A stretch of 64,000 nucleotides of DNA from Sulfurospirillum sp. UCH001 (GTDB taxonomy: Bacteria; Campylobacterota; Campylobacteria; Campylobacterales; Sulfurospirillaceae), in the NCBI RefSeq assembly GCF_001548035.1, contig NZ_AP014723.1, positions 2,418,001 through 2,482,000 on the forward strand. Direction: 5' to 3'. Both the position numbers and the translations under genes were made by a program. Under the pieces are notes generated by a model. It saw only the letters and a program-made list of their open reading frames with translations, did no database searches and had not been told where the DNA came from. Position 1 is the stretch's first letter; every line of letters starts with the position of its first letter. Shown piece by piece: positions 41,915-45,855 of this stretch.

Positions 41915-41975
41915 CTTTAGTGCCACAGCGGCTAGCGTAGCCAAAGAAGCTTTGCTTTTTTGGCGTGATAAAATA
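41898..41975 (+). ncRNA. Structured intergenic element, copy 1
   Basis: After cysN: hairpin ACCGACT-C-AGTCGGT over the stop codon, then CCACAG, stem 1 GGCTA-GCG-TAGCC (41930-41942) and stem 2 CCAAAGAAGC-TTT-GCTTTTTTGG (41941-41963, ten pairs). Stems 1 and 2 share the CC at 41941-41942 and so cannot both be complete. The same order appears at 48356 with compensatory base changes. No T-run terminator follows. It may stabilise, process or regulate the mRNA. Confidence 0.6.
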
Positions 41976-41993
41976 ATTAAAAGAGGATACACA

Positions 41994-42200: not shown

Positions 42201-43003
42201 GAGATTTTACGGACGAAGAATTAGAGCGTTATTCACGCCACATTATCCTTCAAGATGTTGGTATCGAAGGGCAAGAAAAAATTGCAAATTCTAAAGTGTT
42301 GGTCATTGGTGCAGGCGGGCTTGGTTCTCCTGTAGCACTTTACCTAGCCGCTGCAGGTGTAGGTGAAATTGGCATCGTGGATGGTGACGTGGTTGATTTG
42401 AGCAATCTTCAACGCCAAGTCATTCACACAACTGCTGATGTAAGTGTACCTAAAGTGCTCTCCGCCAAAGCGAAGATGGAAGCCATTAACCCCAATGTAA
42501 AAGTAACGGTCTATCAAAAGTTTTTGGATGCATCGAACATCTTAGACATCGTGAAAGGCTACGACTTCGTTATCGATGGAACGGACAATTTTTCATCAAA
42601 ATTCTTGATTAACGATGCGTGTATCTTAGCAAACGTACCGTATTCTCACGGTGGTATTTTGCGTTTTGGTGGACAGACGATGACCATTAAACCTGGTCAA
42701 AGTGCATGTTATGCGTGTGTATTTGACAGCCCTCCTCCAGCCAATGCCATTCCTACATGCTCAAGTGCGGGCATTTTAGGAGCGGTTGCGGGTATGCTGG
42801 GAACGATTCAAGCCGCAGAAGCGTTAAAATACATCGTTGGTGTAGGTGAACCACTGTATAATAGACTCTTAACGTTTGATGCAAAAACGATGAACTTTAG
42901 AAATGTGAATTTCAAAAAGAACCCTAAATGCCGTGTATGCGGTGGCGAAGGCATCAAAGAGATTAGAGACTACGAAGCCGTTGTATGTGAGGCAAAATTA
43001 TGA
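42197..43003 (+). CDS. hcyF: HcyS-adenylating enzyme (ThiF/MoeB family)
   Basis: 268 residues from GTG. Opens with RYSRHIILQDVGIEGQEKI and nucleotide loop VIGAGGLGSPVALYLAAAG, then IDGTDNFSSKFLINDAC. Two zinc CXXC pairs (ACYACVF and CRVCGG) and a possible catalytic Cys in PTCSSAGILG are present. It should adenylate the HcyS C-terminus after alanine removal. GTGA overlap with hcyS and ATGA overlap with hcyD. Confidence 0.92.
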   Translation: MRDFTDEELERYSRHIILQDVGIEGQEKIANSKVLVIGAGGLGSPVALYLAAAGVGEIGIVDGDVVDLSNLQRQVIHTTADVSVPKVLSAKAKMEAINPNVKVTVYQKFLDASNILDIVKGYDFVIDGTDNFSSKFLINDACILANVPYSHGGILRFGGQTMTIKPGQSACYACVFDSPPPANAIPTCSSAGILGAVAGMLGTIQAAEALKYIVGVGEPLYNRLLTFDAKTMNFRNVNFKKNPKCRVCGGEGIKEIRDYEAVVCEAKL

Positions 43004-43401
43004 TAAAAATCCCTAACAGTGCGTACAATGAGATGGTTCTCCACGCACTAAAAGATAAACCCATTGAAGCGTGTGGTTATCTTGCTGGGCTTAATGGCGA
43101 AGTGAAATATGCCATCCCTATGAAAAATACGGATGAGAGCAACGAACACTTTAGCTTTGACCCACAAGAACAGTTTGATGTGTTTAAAAAGACACAAAAA
43201 GAGGGGCTTCGTTTGATTGGGGTGTACCATTCACACCCTGAAACCCCTGCACGTCCAAGTGAAGAAGACATTCGTTTGGCGTATGATCCTAATGTGAGCT
43301 ATGTGATTATCTCACTTGCGGGTGCAGAGCCTGATATGAAGTCATTTATTATTAAAAACAAAACGGTTGAAAAAGAAGAAATTGAAATAATTTTAGATTG
43401 A
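43000..43401 (+). CDS. hcyD: JAMM metalloprotease for HcyS maturation
   Basis: 133 residues. Complete JAMM/MPN+ zinc motif: Glu in IEACGYL, then YHSHPETPARPSEEDI (H-x-H-P...S-x-x-D). By comparison with W. succinogenes HcyD it cuts the last alanine from HcyS. Four-base overlap with hcyF. Followed by a 165-base spacer with a strong stem. Confidence 0.92.
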   Translation: MIKIPNSAYNEMVLHALKDKPIEACGYLAGLNGEVKYAIPMKNTDESNEHFSFDPQEQFDVFKKTQKEGLRLIGVYHSHPETPARPSEEDIRLAYDPNVSYVIISLAGAEPDMKSFIIKNKTVEKEEIEIILD

Positions 43402-43438
43402 TGAAAAAGGCGCGTAGAAAAAATCCGAATAAAACACT

Positions 43439-43492
43439 TTGAGCCGATGGGACGAATAAGCGGAGCGTTTCGGGGCTCCCATCGTGGCTCAA
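43439..43492 (+). ncRNA. Long stem-loop between hcyD and sir
   Basis: TTGAGCC-GATGGGA (43439-43452) pairs with TCCCATC-GT-GGCTCAA (43477-43492), 14 pairs with a two-base bulge. The 24-base inner part can form a small CGAA/TTCG hairpin. No T-run follows and sir starts 75 bases later, so it is not a plain terminator. It could be an mRNA stabiliser, a processing site or a ligand-binding leader. The remaining spacer 43402-43566 shows only the AAGGAG of sir. Confidence 0.55.
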
Positions 43493-43566
43493 CCGTGTTG
43501 CAAGAGGGTTTATTTTGAAGCTGCTTTCTTCATAAAAACGTTTACCTGTAACAACAAGGAGTTACG

Positions 43567-45855
43567 ATGAGCAGATATGAAATTCCCCAAATGGTCTATG
43601 ATGACCTTGCTACGTTCAAAAAAAACCATGCCGATTTTTTAGCAGGCAAACTTGATGAACTTACCTTTAAAACAATGCGTGTTCCTTTTGGTGTTTACGA
43701 GCAACGTGAAGCCAACACCTTTATGGTACGTATCAAACTTGCAGGTGGTATCGTTACCCCAAAACAGCTTTTAACATTGGCTGATTTAGCACAAAAGTAC
43801 GCGCATGAAGCCATTCACATCACCACGCGTGGTGGTGCACAACTCCACTACGTGAAGATTGAAGATATTATTGCTATTATCGAAACCTTGCACAGTATTG
43901 ACCTTAGCGGTCGTGGCGGCGGAGGAAATACCGTTCGTAATATCATGGCAGACCCACTTGCAGGTACTGCACCTGATGAAGTGTTTGATGTCTCACCTTA
44001 CGCACTTACACTCACCTCTAAAATGCTAGAACAAAAAGACTCTTTTGCGCTTCCACGAAAATTCAAAATCACGTTTAGTGGCTCAGAAGCAGACCGTGGT
44101 TACGCGACCATCCATGACGTTGGATTTATCGCTAAAATCCAAGATGGTGTAAAAGGCTTTAAACTCTTTACCGCGGGTGGTATGGGTGCAAAATCTCGTT
44201 TGGGAACGAAACTTCGTGATTTCGTGCCAGACACTGAGGTATTCCTCTACTCTCAAGCCATCAAACAAGTGTTTGACAAATACGGCAACCGTAAGAACAA
44301 ACACGCCGCGCGTCTTCGCTTCTTGTTTGAAGATTTAGGGTTGGAAGAGTTTAATAAACTTCTTGAAGTTGAATTAGAAGCAGTAAAAGCCAAAGGCGAT
44401 TGGGAACTTCCTATCACTGAGATTGAAAGAACAGTAGGCGATACCACGCATGAGCCATTTAGCGTTCCTGAAAACATAAAAAAATGGTGGAACCGTTACG
44501 TGTATGCCCAAAAACAAGCCGGTTTTTATGGCTGTAAAGTACCCGTGCATTTAGGCGACATTCACTTTGAAAACGCACGTGCTCTTGCAAATGCGCTTCT
44601 GCCATATGGAGAAGATGTTATGCGTTTTACGGGTGACCAAAACCTCTACATCCGTAACCTCACAGGTCCACAAATGGCAAGTTTGCATGACATCTTGCAA
44701 GCCTTCTCTAAAGATGTGGCAAAACCAACCCTCTTTGGTGATATGGTAGCGTGTACAGGTGCTGCAACATGTCAGTTAGGTATTGCTCGTCCTCGTGGTG
44801 CAGTCGATGCGATTCAAAAACGTCTTAATAAACTCATCGATGAGCGTGACTATGACGCCCTTCAAGGCTTTAAAATTCATTTATCGGGTTGTCCAAACAG
44901 TTGTGGTAAACACCTCATCGGGGATCTTGGTTTCTTTGGAAAAGTCCAACGTAATGAAGGCTACTCTTACCCAGCATACAACGTTGTTGCAGGCTCACGC
45001 ACGTCAGGTGATGGCAGTGTTTACGCACAAAAAGCAGGCGATGTCGCAGCGTTTCATGTGCCAGCTTTTGTTGAAGAAGTGCTCGATACATGGCTAAAAC
45101 ACGTAAAAGCCTATAAAAGTTTTGCGGATTGGATTGATGATGGCGGACTTGCGATTATCACTGAAATCAGTAAAAAATACGTGGATATTCCATCGTTCAA
45201 AGAAGATAAAAACCCATACTTTGACTACGATGCCGTGGAACTCTTCTCTTTAAAAGGTCGCGGTACAGGTGAATGTAGTGCAGGTATGTACGACCTCATC
45301 GAAGCCGATAAAAAAGCTCTTAAAGAGGCACTTGAGAAAGAAGAGAAAAATTTTGAGCTGATTCGTCTTCTCTCCGCTCGTATGCTTTTAGTGACTCGTG
45401 GTGAAGATGCACGCGATAAAGAGGCCGTACTTAAGGCATTTAAACAACACTTTATCGAAACAACACTTCTGAATGCTTACTTTGGGACAATGTTAGAGGG
45501 TGATGCGGATGAGAAATCGATTGAGCTCGCGGAAGAAGTCATTAAACTCTATGAAACAATGGATCATACGCTAAAATTTGCGAAAGAGAAAGAGCTAGCC
45601 GCGGCAGCAGCAACAGAAGCAAAACCAGTAGCTTCGGCACACTTTAAGGATCTTAGTGGTGTAGCGTGCCCAATGAACTTTGTCAAAACCAAAATGGAAC
45701 TCTCTAAAATCGGCAGTGGCGAAGTCTTGGAAATTTTACTGGATGATGGAGCACCGATTGATAACGTCCCAAAATCTGTTGCGAGTGAAGGTCACACCGT
45801 CGAGGCAACCACTAAAGAGGGTAACGGCTGGCGTGTAAGGATCGTGAAAAAATGA
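43567..45855 (+). CDS. Sulfite reductase fused to a TusA-like domain
   Basis: 762 residues. The sulfite/nitrite reductase core (about 1-560) has THITTRGGAQLHYV-type and siroheme-[4Fe-4S] motifs: CTGAATCQLGIARPRGA and LSGCPNSCGKHLIGDLGF, giving the four cluster cysteines. A helical linker (about 560-690, ending in an Ala-rich stretch) leads to a TusA/SirA-like domain (from about 693) with sulfur-carrier Cys701 in GVACPMNFVKTK. Reduces sulfite to sulfide for HcyS loading. ATG follows AAGGAG. Confidence 0.93.
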   Translation: MSRYEIPQMVYDDLATFKKNHADFLAGKLDELTFKTMRVPFGVYEQREANTFMVRIKLAGGIVTPKQLLTLADLAQKYAHEAIHITTRGGAQLHYVKIEDIIAIIETLHSIDLSGRGGGGNTVRNIMADPLAGTAPDEVFDVSPYALTLTSKMLEQKDSFALPRKFKITFSGSEADRGYATIHDVGFIAKIQDGVKGFKLFTAGGMGAKSRLGTKLRDFVPDTEVFLYSQAIKQVFDKYGNRKNKHAARLRFLFEDLGLEEFNKLLEVELEAVKAKGDWELPITEIERTVGDTTHEPFSVPENIKKWWNRYVYAQKQAGFYGCKVPVHLGDIHFENARALANALLPYGEDVMRFTGDQNLYIRNLTGPQMASLHDILQAFSKDVAKPTLFGDMVACTGAATCQLGIARPRGAVDAIQKRLNKLIDERDYDALQGFKIHLSGCPNSCGKHLIGDLGFFGKVQRNEGYSYPAYNVVAGSRTSGDGSVYAQKAGDVAAFHVPAFVEEVLDTWLKHVKAYKSFADWIDDGGLAIITEISKKYVDIPSFKEDKNPYFDYDAVELFSLKGRGTGECSAGMYDLIEADKKALKEALEKEEKNFELIRLLSARMLLVTRGEDARDKEAVLKAFKQHFIETTLLNAYFGTMLEGDADEKSIELAEEVIKLYETMDHTLKFAKEKELAAAAATEAKPVASAHFKDLSGVACPMNFVKTKMELSKIGSGEVLEILLDDGAPIDNVPKSVASEGHTVEATTKEGNGWRVRIVKK

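Follow-up and report, generated by a model that had tools for sequence, protein, structure and literature searches.

The 165-base spacer (43402-43566) between the genes hcyD and sir of Sulfurospirillum sp. UCH001 contains a long bulged stem, and raises the question whether this stem belongs to sir as a device sensing a sulfur metabolite, as was proposed in the sequence-only reading, or has reached its position in some other way. The window, that is, the whole stretch of DNA analyzed, comprises 64,000 nucleotides, and the following features of it are referred to below.

43000..43401, plus strand: hcyD, upstream gene, named in the first reading of the sequence; Prok-JAB peptidase domain (Pfam PF14464, E 9.7e-27)
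43402..43532, plus strand: whole hairpin element including the outer arms, delimited by the MFE fold of 43402-43540 and by filled and empty hcyD-sir spacers of relatives
About 43402-43429 and 43505-43532, plus strand: outer arms, from the same fold
43411..43420, plus strand: left-arm block CGCGTAGAAA, which includes GTAG (by eye on the alignment)
43417..43512, plus strand: conserved core, which defines the orientation (covariance model R1, G000:C1:2461417-2461512, E 2.7e-25; 74-copy alignment)
43439..43492, plus strand: 14-pair stem seen in the sequence, belonging to the inner helix
43453..43476, plus strand: apical part, with a CGAA/TTCG helix of 43453-43456 with 43469-43472 (34-copy alignment, pair counts)
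43473-43476, plus strand: one-sided bulge GGGC, for which most other copies read GGG[CT] (by eye)
43484-43485: GT bulge of the stem
43567..45855, plus strand: sir, downstream gene; NIR_SIR sulfite reductase domains and a C-terminal TusA domain (Pfam PF01077, PF03460, PF01206)

The stem itself, as well as the length of the spacer, was reproduced exactly as first described: the segments TTGAGCCGATGGGA (43439-43452) and TCCCATC-GT-GGCTCAA (43477-43492) form 14 pairs with a single two-base bulge (GT). A search for stems of 7+7 pairs with a bulge of at most 2 nt and a loop of 3-30 detected 14 pairs only here in the 64-kb window, and nowhere in any of 20 first-order Markov resamples. The reported stem proved to be the middle of a larger imperfect hairpin (43402-43532). 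For 43402-43540 the MFE was -47.3 kcal/mol on the plus strand (z -3.7), which none of 200 shuffles reached, and -37.3 kcal/mol on the minus strand (z -2.4), which 4 of 200 shuffles reached. Four more spacers were folded, with z values of -4.4 to -5.0 in three of them; the copy between cysG and metY in G014 folded at chance level (z -1.05, 30 of 200 shuffles as good). Within 43300-43700 no promoter-like sites were found, and the sole terminator-like site was a 5-pair stem on the minus strand, while an Rfam scan of 42900-43700 gave no match up to E 5.

According to Pfam, the further neighbors encode two proteins with PAPS-reductase domains, a CysN-type GTPase, a ThiS-like carrier, ThiF, a CysG-type protein and a Cys/Met PLP enzyme. 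The operon had been described as otherwise overlapping, which is not uniformly the case, as the cysN-hcyS spacer (41915-41993, with hcyS taken from 41994) measures 79 bases.

A BLAST search with the spacer revealed a second copy in the same genome (G000:C1:2378818-2378897, 88% identical; G000:C1:2378803-2378899 as a match to the 96-nt core), located between the genes of XTP pyrophosphatase and MltA, both named from their translations. The earlier statement that the stem is unlike two repeated elements thus holds at most within the window and fails for the genome. Spacer matches were obtained in 19 of 60 genomes, the own one included, all of the same genus; in G005 and G022 only flanking sequence was matched. 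At E<=0.01 the covariance model R1, built from 34 copies with the window copy among them, detected the element in 20 of the 24 genus genomes, with 1-4 copies in each of these and 41 altogether (two in the own genome, 0-4 over the genus). Throughout the order it matched in 38 of 298 genomes and 14 of 81 genera at E<=0.001, of which the matches at E 1e-4 to 1e-3 may be due to chance, nine genera being left at E<=1e-6. In a phylum sample of 298 well-completed genomes, 16 matched at E<=1e-4, all within the same order. A degenerate core pattern matched 20 stretches of the GTDB collection, assigned to Sulfurospirillum, Sulfurospirillaceae, Nitratiruptor, Arcobacter, Campylobacterales/Campylobacteraceae and one MAG labeled Proteobacteria. 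A phage or plasmid origin was considered and rejected: the spacer had no BLAST match in phage or plasmid collections, and the core pattern was absent from viral contigs. No account of this element was found in the literature searched, including the accessible portions of PMC6006769 and PMC3847290.

Pairing in relatives that keep the hcyD-sir order had been named as the check on the stem, and this expectation was borne out: the element precedes sir in 15 of the 19 genus genomes with hcyD, its pairing being kept with many double changes. In the 34-copy core alignment (A2), 92.6% of the cells were paired vs. 87.2% in shuffles, and double-change cells numbered 54 vs. 17.5, while a slid structure was paired to at most 51%; further pair types showed no excess in A2 (23 vs. 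22.7 in shuffles). The 74-copy alignment (A3), which was fitted to R1 and hence leans towards the model, exhibited changes on both sides in 23 of 29 pairs, 363 double-change cells vs. 106 shuffled, and 92.8% pairing vs. 33-46% in slid controls. Watson-Crick pairs make up the great majority of cells (1940 of 2144), and 50 cells are G-T. As judged by eye, three unpaired features recur across genera: U facing CC, a single bulged U, and the one-sided GGG[CT]. In a strand test by G-T vs. A-C mismatches, the inner helices had no bias (26 vs. 25; 13 vs. 16 in the MAFFT alignment A2), the outer helix of the model had 24 vs. 5 (17 vs. 4 in A2), and the arms, read on the core strand, had 50 vs. 12 in 58 copies, a bias that shrank to 32 vs. 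12 when 41 distinct loci were counted (p 0.047 after allowing for composition) and that is at most suggestive of a strand.

Orientation and occupancy varied at orthologous sites. At hcyD-sir, eight copies are in the plus orientation (G000, G002, G003, G006, G010, G011, G014, G021; in G006, hcyD lies on a separate contig) and seven in the minus one (G004, G008, G012, G016, G019, G020, G023); G022 (41-base spacer) and both G007 and G009 (practically no spacer) have no element, and G013 carries a different hairpin element instead. The cysG-metY junction holds the plus orientation in five genomes (G002, G004, G011, G020, G021) and the minus one in three (G010, G012, G014), is empty in G000, G003 and G022, and contains another element, designated type II, in G006, G008, G016, G019 and G023; a short contig of G006 also ends in a partial minus copy. 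Between guaB and metX the element is plus in G017 and G007 and minus in G015. The copies at XTPase-mltA (five genomes) and rpe (two genomes) have a single orientation among all copies, and rpe and XTPase leaders without the element occur as well, e.g., in G011 and G012. Presence and absence at orthologous sites were thus recorded at five loci (hcyD-sir, cysG-metY, rpe, XTPase-mltA, guaB-metX). Some copies look nested, with an inverted copy within remnants of another (G012, G004, G023, G019, G016), and in G002 the entire nest is inverted (both by eye); such nesting is what imperfect template switching would leave. Comparison by eye of empty and filled sites at cysG-metY, XTPase-mltA and rpe gave no clear target-site duplication, the junctions having diverged.

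Other hairpins were encountered at the same junctions. Type II is a second, unrelated dispersed hairpin element of about 105 nt (GCACC..GGTGCGTGGGC..CTGCCGAAG..GTTAGCGTAG..) with 2-39 BLAST matches per genome in all 24 genus genomes and nine in the own genome, and it fills junctions that carry the present element (type I) in other species; examples are L118 (hcyD-sir, G013), L041:11670-11828 (cysG-metY, G008) and L162 (rpe leader, G004). An Rfam scan of L118, L162, L112 and L115 returned only a sub-threshold match to Alpha_RBS, at L162. Type II matches are found in spacers of the hcyD-sir operon in other species, and 41933-41958 in the cysN-hcyS spacer of the window bears a weak likeness to it (81% over 26 nt, E 0.2). 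The rpe leader has a small hairpin TAGACT..AGTCTA at the type I position in G000, G016 and G023 (L163, L166, L165), type I in G008 and G019, and, besides the type II of G004, a type II-like insert in G002 and G021 (by eye). Of the 22 guaB-metX spacers read, 20 hold some hairpin, its kind differing among species: nine have a further hairpin element, in its commonest form ATTCTGTCTCGAAAGAGACAAGC..GCGTAGGTTTTTGGGCTTTGCCTAAAAACCGTGG, with REP-like GTAG plus hairpin (e.g., L259, L263, L264, L268), and seven others have unrelated simple hairpins in the same place (all by eye). Also by eye, G005 retains remnants of the arms at guaB-metX without the core, which is present there in G015.

The arms outside the core have their own sequence at each locus, yet are self-complementary. 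In the 58 of 74 copies scored, the mean arm score was 13.4 vs. 6.7 for arms swapped between copies, and scores of at least 10 were reached by 51 of 58 copies vs. 14 of 174 controls. At the orthologous cysG-metY site both arms change jointly (GTAAATC/GATTTAC, GGCTAATC/GATTAGCC). The motif GCGTAG is present in the left arm of 15 of the 23 copies from hcyD-sir and cysG-metY and in none from other loci in the same alignment (by eye). In the copies of G029 and G053 (L207, L104) the arms resemble by eye the AGACTTCTTGCAAAA hairpin that precedes the type II element. Insertion of the core into a repeated hairpin is a tentative idea at most: the exact hairpin pattern was found in only one of 37 genomes, a set to which G029 and G053 do not belong.

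Among 14 genomes the mean identity of the hcyD-sir core was 0.875 vs. 0.52 for the 4-fold sites of hcyE, and it exceeded the latter in all 91 genome pairs. The cores of G000 and G008 are 98% identical though inverted; of the 4-fold sites compared between these two genomes, 24 of 39 match for hcyD, and 44 of 82 for the first part of sir. Strong purifying selection on the core, and not recent spread, could be behind this high identity. Two types of the hcyD-sir core, grouped by the analyst, are scattered on the HcyE + CysG tree, in which only four of 12 inner branches are well supported: type B takes five changes (shuffled mean 4.8) and type A three (mean of 4.3 in shuffles, of which 68 in 500 needed no more). 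This departure from the gene tree suits replacement or re-insertion.

Outside hcyD-sir and cysG-metY we considered 25 loci, a set with a few orthologous pairs and a few doubtful neighboring ORFs, where the element is sense to both neighbors in 10 cases, antisense to both in 11, mixed in three and one-sided in one. The neighbors, recognized from translations, are unrelated to one another and read mostly as housekeeping genes: rpe, guaB/metX, XTPase/mltA, dxr, gidA, acpP, dnaE, dnaB, metE and recQ. At 20 of the 25 loci the gap between the core and the ORF on its upstream side is 41 nt or less, or the two overlap, and no shared sequence upstream of the copies was noticed by eye. No transposase, recombinase or parent element was recognized by eye in the first 90 residues of the immediate neighbors at these loci. 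Matches to Y1_Tnp, one to three each, are present in 23 of the 24 genus genomes. RAYT as mobilizer is a mere lead and speculative, because Y1_Tnp is also found in G005, G013 and G022, three of the four genomes where R1 detected no copy, and because about 3 kb on each side of 20 RAYT (Y1_Tnp) loci gave no spacer match at E<=1e-3 (one match at L238 covers 30 nt with E 0.055). The single Y1_Tnp match of the own genome is a RAYT-like Y1 transposase whose C-terminus weakly matches an HTH domain (L233:2896-3654, G000:C1:362895-363653), encoded just upstream of a long ORF reading as gyrase subunit A, and homologues are present in all 20 loci. Of 39 genus copies, 28 have a different motif, TTACATGTAA, no farther than 100 nt away, and 32 do so if one mismatch is allowed. 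It was rejected as a target site, since these loci contain it frequently in any case (190 occurrences over 342 kb), and the association may reflect a preference for intergenic regions. In the loci of G008, G019 and G012, TTACATGTAA is the commonest 10-mer, with 53 occurrences over about 87 kb, and 16 of 18 genus genomes counted contain it frequently, with none in 80.5 kb of the own genome, window included, and one in 24.5 kb of the sister G020; it has the look of an uptake- or nucleoid-type signal that the own lineage has lost.

With regard to known repeats, ERIC elements occur in both orientations, and we know of no ERIC in which a conserved core is enclosed in locus-specific arms. The present element agrees with ERIC in length, fold and orientation, being an intergenic imperfect palindrome of near 127 bp found either way round. 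The enterobacterial ERIC/IRU (RU-1) is described in PMC2229807 as about 127 bp long, intergenic, forming a long stem-loop and co-transcribed with its neighbors in Yersinia; the same source tabulates it with 7-bp TIRs, terminal TA and TSDs, of which no clear instance was seen in the copies here, and the organisms are different. The REP/REPIN repeats with their RAYTs are likewise palindromic, extragenic and found in both orientations, and Y1_Tnp in the genus and GCGTAG in some copies recall them. However, REPs are given as 20-40 bp in PMC3733652, compared with the 96-nt core, and as usually exceeding 100 copies in PMC2817692, compared with one to five per genome. In addition, the RAYT gene has no adjoining copy in the 20 loci. 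REPs are marked by a GTAG/GGAG tag beside a short hairpin, and GTAG stands in the left arm of the 15 copies mentioned. Families of the Correia/NEMIS, RUP and RPE type are known to be present or absent between related genomes, as is the element at its five loci, and these and other MITE-like repeats share with it the small size and the possible long stem-loop. Most of them are tabulated in PMC2229807 with defined terminal inverted repeats, and several with TSDs, whereas the outer arms here vary by locus. In the Rfam structured RNAs, such as riboswitches and attenuators, helices are likewise conserved through double changes and loop bases are fixed, but these RNAs keep a constant sense orientation in leaders of functionally related genes, whereas the element has no Rfam match to E 5 and no strand preference relative to genes. 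On the whole, the hairpin shares some features with ERIC and MITE-like repeats and lacks others.

The conserved pairing and loop bases upstream of a sulfur gene, together with metY, metX and metE among the other neighbors, are what a cis-acting riboswitch or attenuator would display, whether it sensed a sulfur metabolite or otherwise governed sir specifically. We rejected this explanation on orientation, absence and context, and leave it next to no probability: in 7 of 15 genomes the element points against sir, 4 of 19 genomes with hcyD lack it, most of its neighbors read as unrelated housekeeping genes approached with no sense bias (10 sense, 11 antisense of 25), Rfam offers no match, and the spacer region has no promoter-like site and its only terminator-like site on the minus strand. 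The sensing of a sulfur metabolite is very unlikely precisely because the element is a dispersed repeat, lying in both orientations beside unrelated genes. Double changes with conserved unpaired bases across the order could also be produced by a free-standing small RNA gene, present in several copies and driven by a promoter of its own, in keeping with the excess of G-T over A-C in the arms and outer helix (50:12; 32:12, p 0.047; 24:5) and with the better folding of the window copy on the plus strand. Such a gene is improbable, given the scant room for a promoter at 20 of 25 loci, the lack of a common upstream sequence by eye and of a promoter-like site at the window copy, and the equality of G-T and A-C in the inner helices (26 vs. 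25).

The covariation might, on the other hand, be a by-product of template switching, which keeps a palindrome matched and makes double changes no sign of selection for structure. Two papers describe the homogenizing of arms and the inversion of spacers (PMC8604942) and compensatory changes (PMC8794818) by this route, and the predominance of Watson-Crick pairs as well as the in-place inversions agree with it. We regard this as rather doubtful, as arm correction alone would have removed the mismatches, while internal loops and bulges persist across genera, and the inversions reported in PMC8604942, in yeast genes, span spacers of a few bases, the core here being far longer. Somewhat more credit, though still short of an even chance, is due to the view that the hairpin, of mobile origin or not, is kept as an intercistronic stem useful to the host (3'-end protection, RNase processing, partial termination), for which any hairpin would suffice. 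Indeed, 15 of 19 hcyD-sir junctions are filled and G013 has a different hairpin element there, 20 of 22 guaB-metX spacers hold some hairpin (by eye) of kinds differing among species, the window copy folds on both strands, and PMC2229807 ascribes effects of this sort to ERIC and NEMIS. Against this stand the hcyD-sir junctions of G022, G007 and G009 and the cysG-metY site of G000, all without the element, the chance-level fold of the cysG-metY copy of G014, and the dependence of the ERIC effect on orientation mentioned in the same paper.

The element is dispersed, lies in both orientations, is present or absent at orthologous sites and keeps its pairing through double changes. We consider it quite probable that 43402-43532 is one copy of a low-copy, orientation-indifferent, mobile, dispersed palindromic repeat of Campylobacterota, ERIC/REP/MITE-like in character. 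This repeat would be a small (about 115-130 bp), non-coding and non-autonomous element, its conserved core presumably forming a long hairpin with fixed internal loops within locus-specific self-complementary arms. As DNA, it would appear at or vanish from a site, be replaced there, and turn round in place between its arms. The simplest account of inversion and arm re-matching is presumably polymerase template switching between the inverted arms, which would explain both matched locus-specific arms and inversion in place without a recombinase. Template switching between short inverted repeats re-matches arms and inverts the spacer, in yeast genes with spacers of a few bases, far shorter than the core here (PMC8604942), and it can yield compensatory changes (PMC8794818). 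It leaves the constant internal loops unaccounted for, and these must come from a common mobile source, from selection, or from both. New sites might be reached if a trans-acting enzyme of the HUH/RAYT type, a speculative candidate, acted on the folded single strand. That the structured core travels in such a form, settles in the loop of a locus-specific inverted repeat or creates one itself, and then flips freely in place, as an undescribed kind of mobile element, is an unlikely proposal, to which the arms of the G029 and G053 copies and the coreless arm remnants of G005 point by eye. In RNA, the element would be transcribed together with hcyD and sir and, whichever its orientation, would give an intercistronic hairpin. 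An effect of this hairpin on the hcyD/sir transcript is possible; it may modestly influence processing, stability or read-through, much as the transcripts of ERIC and NEMIS are reported to affect adjacent mRNAs (PMC2229807).

Several observations count against the reading as a mobile repeat. The filling of 15 of 19 hcyD-sir junctions would fit a selected host function there just as well, one to five copies per genome are few for a REP or MITE family, and the copies at XTPase-mltA (5) and rpe (2) each keep one orientation. On the same side stand the 25 loci with no parent element, transposase or recombinase recognized by eye in the immediate neighbors, the 20 RAYT loci with no copy within about 3 kb at E<=1e-3, the lack of a clear target-site duplication, the weakly supported gene tree, and the possible purifying selection on the core. 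Taken together, what was supposed to be a riboswitch specific to one operon turns out to be a member of a dispersed hairpin family with a strongly covarying core and no Rfam match. There is also a warning in this, for covariation normally serves to prove that an RNA is functional and is met here in a strand-flipping element, where template switching can make it. With three loci occupied in both orientations and other hairpins at the same junctions, the origin and turnover of intercistronic hairpins become directly testable.
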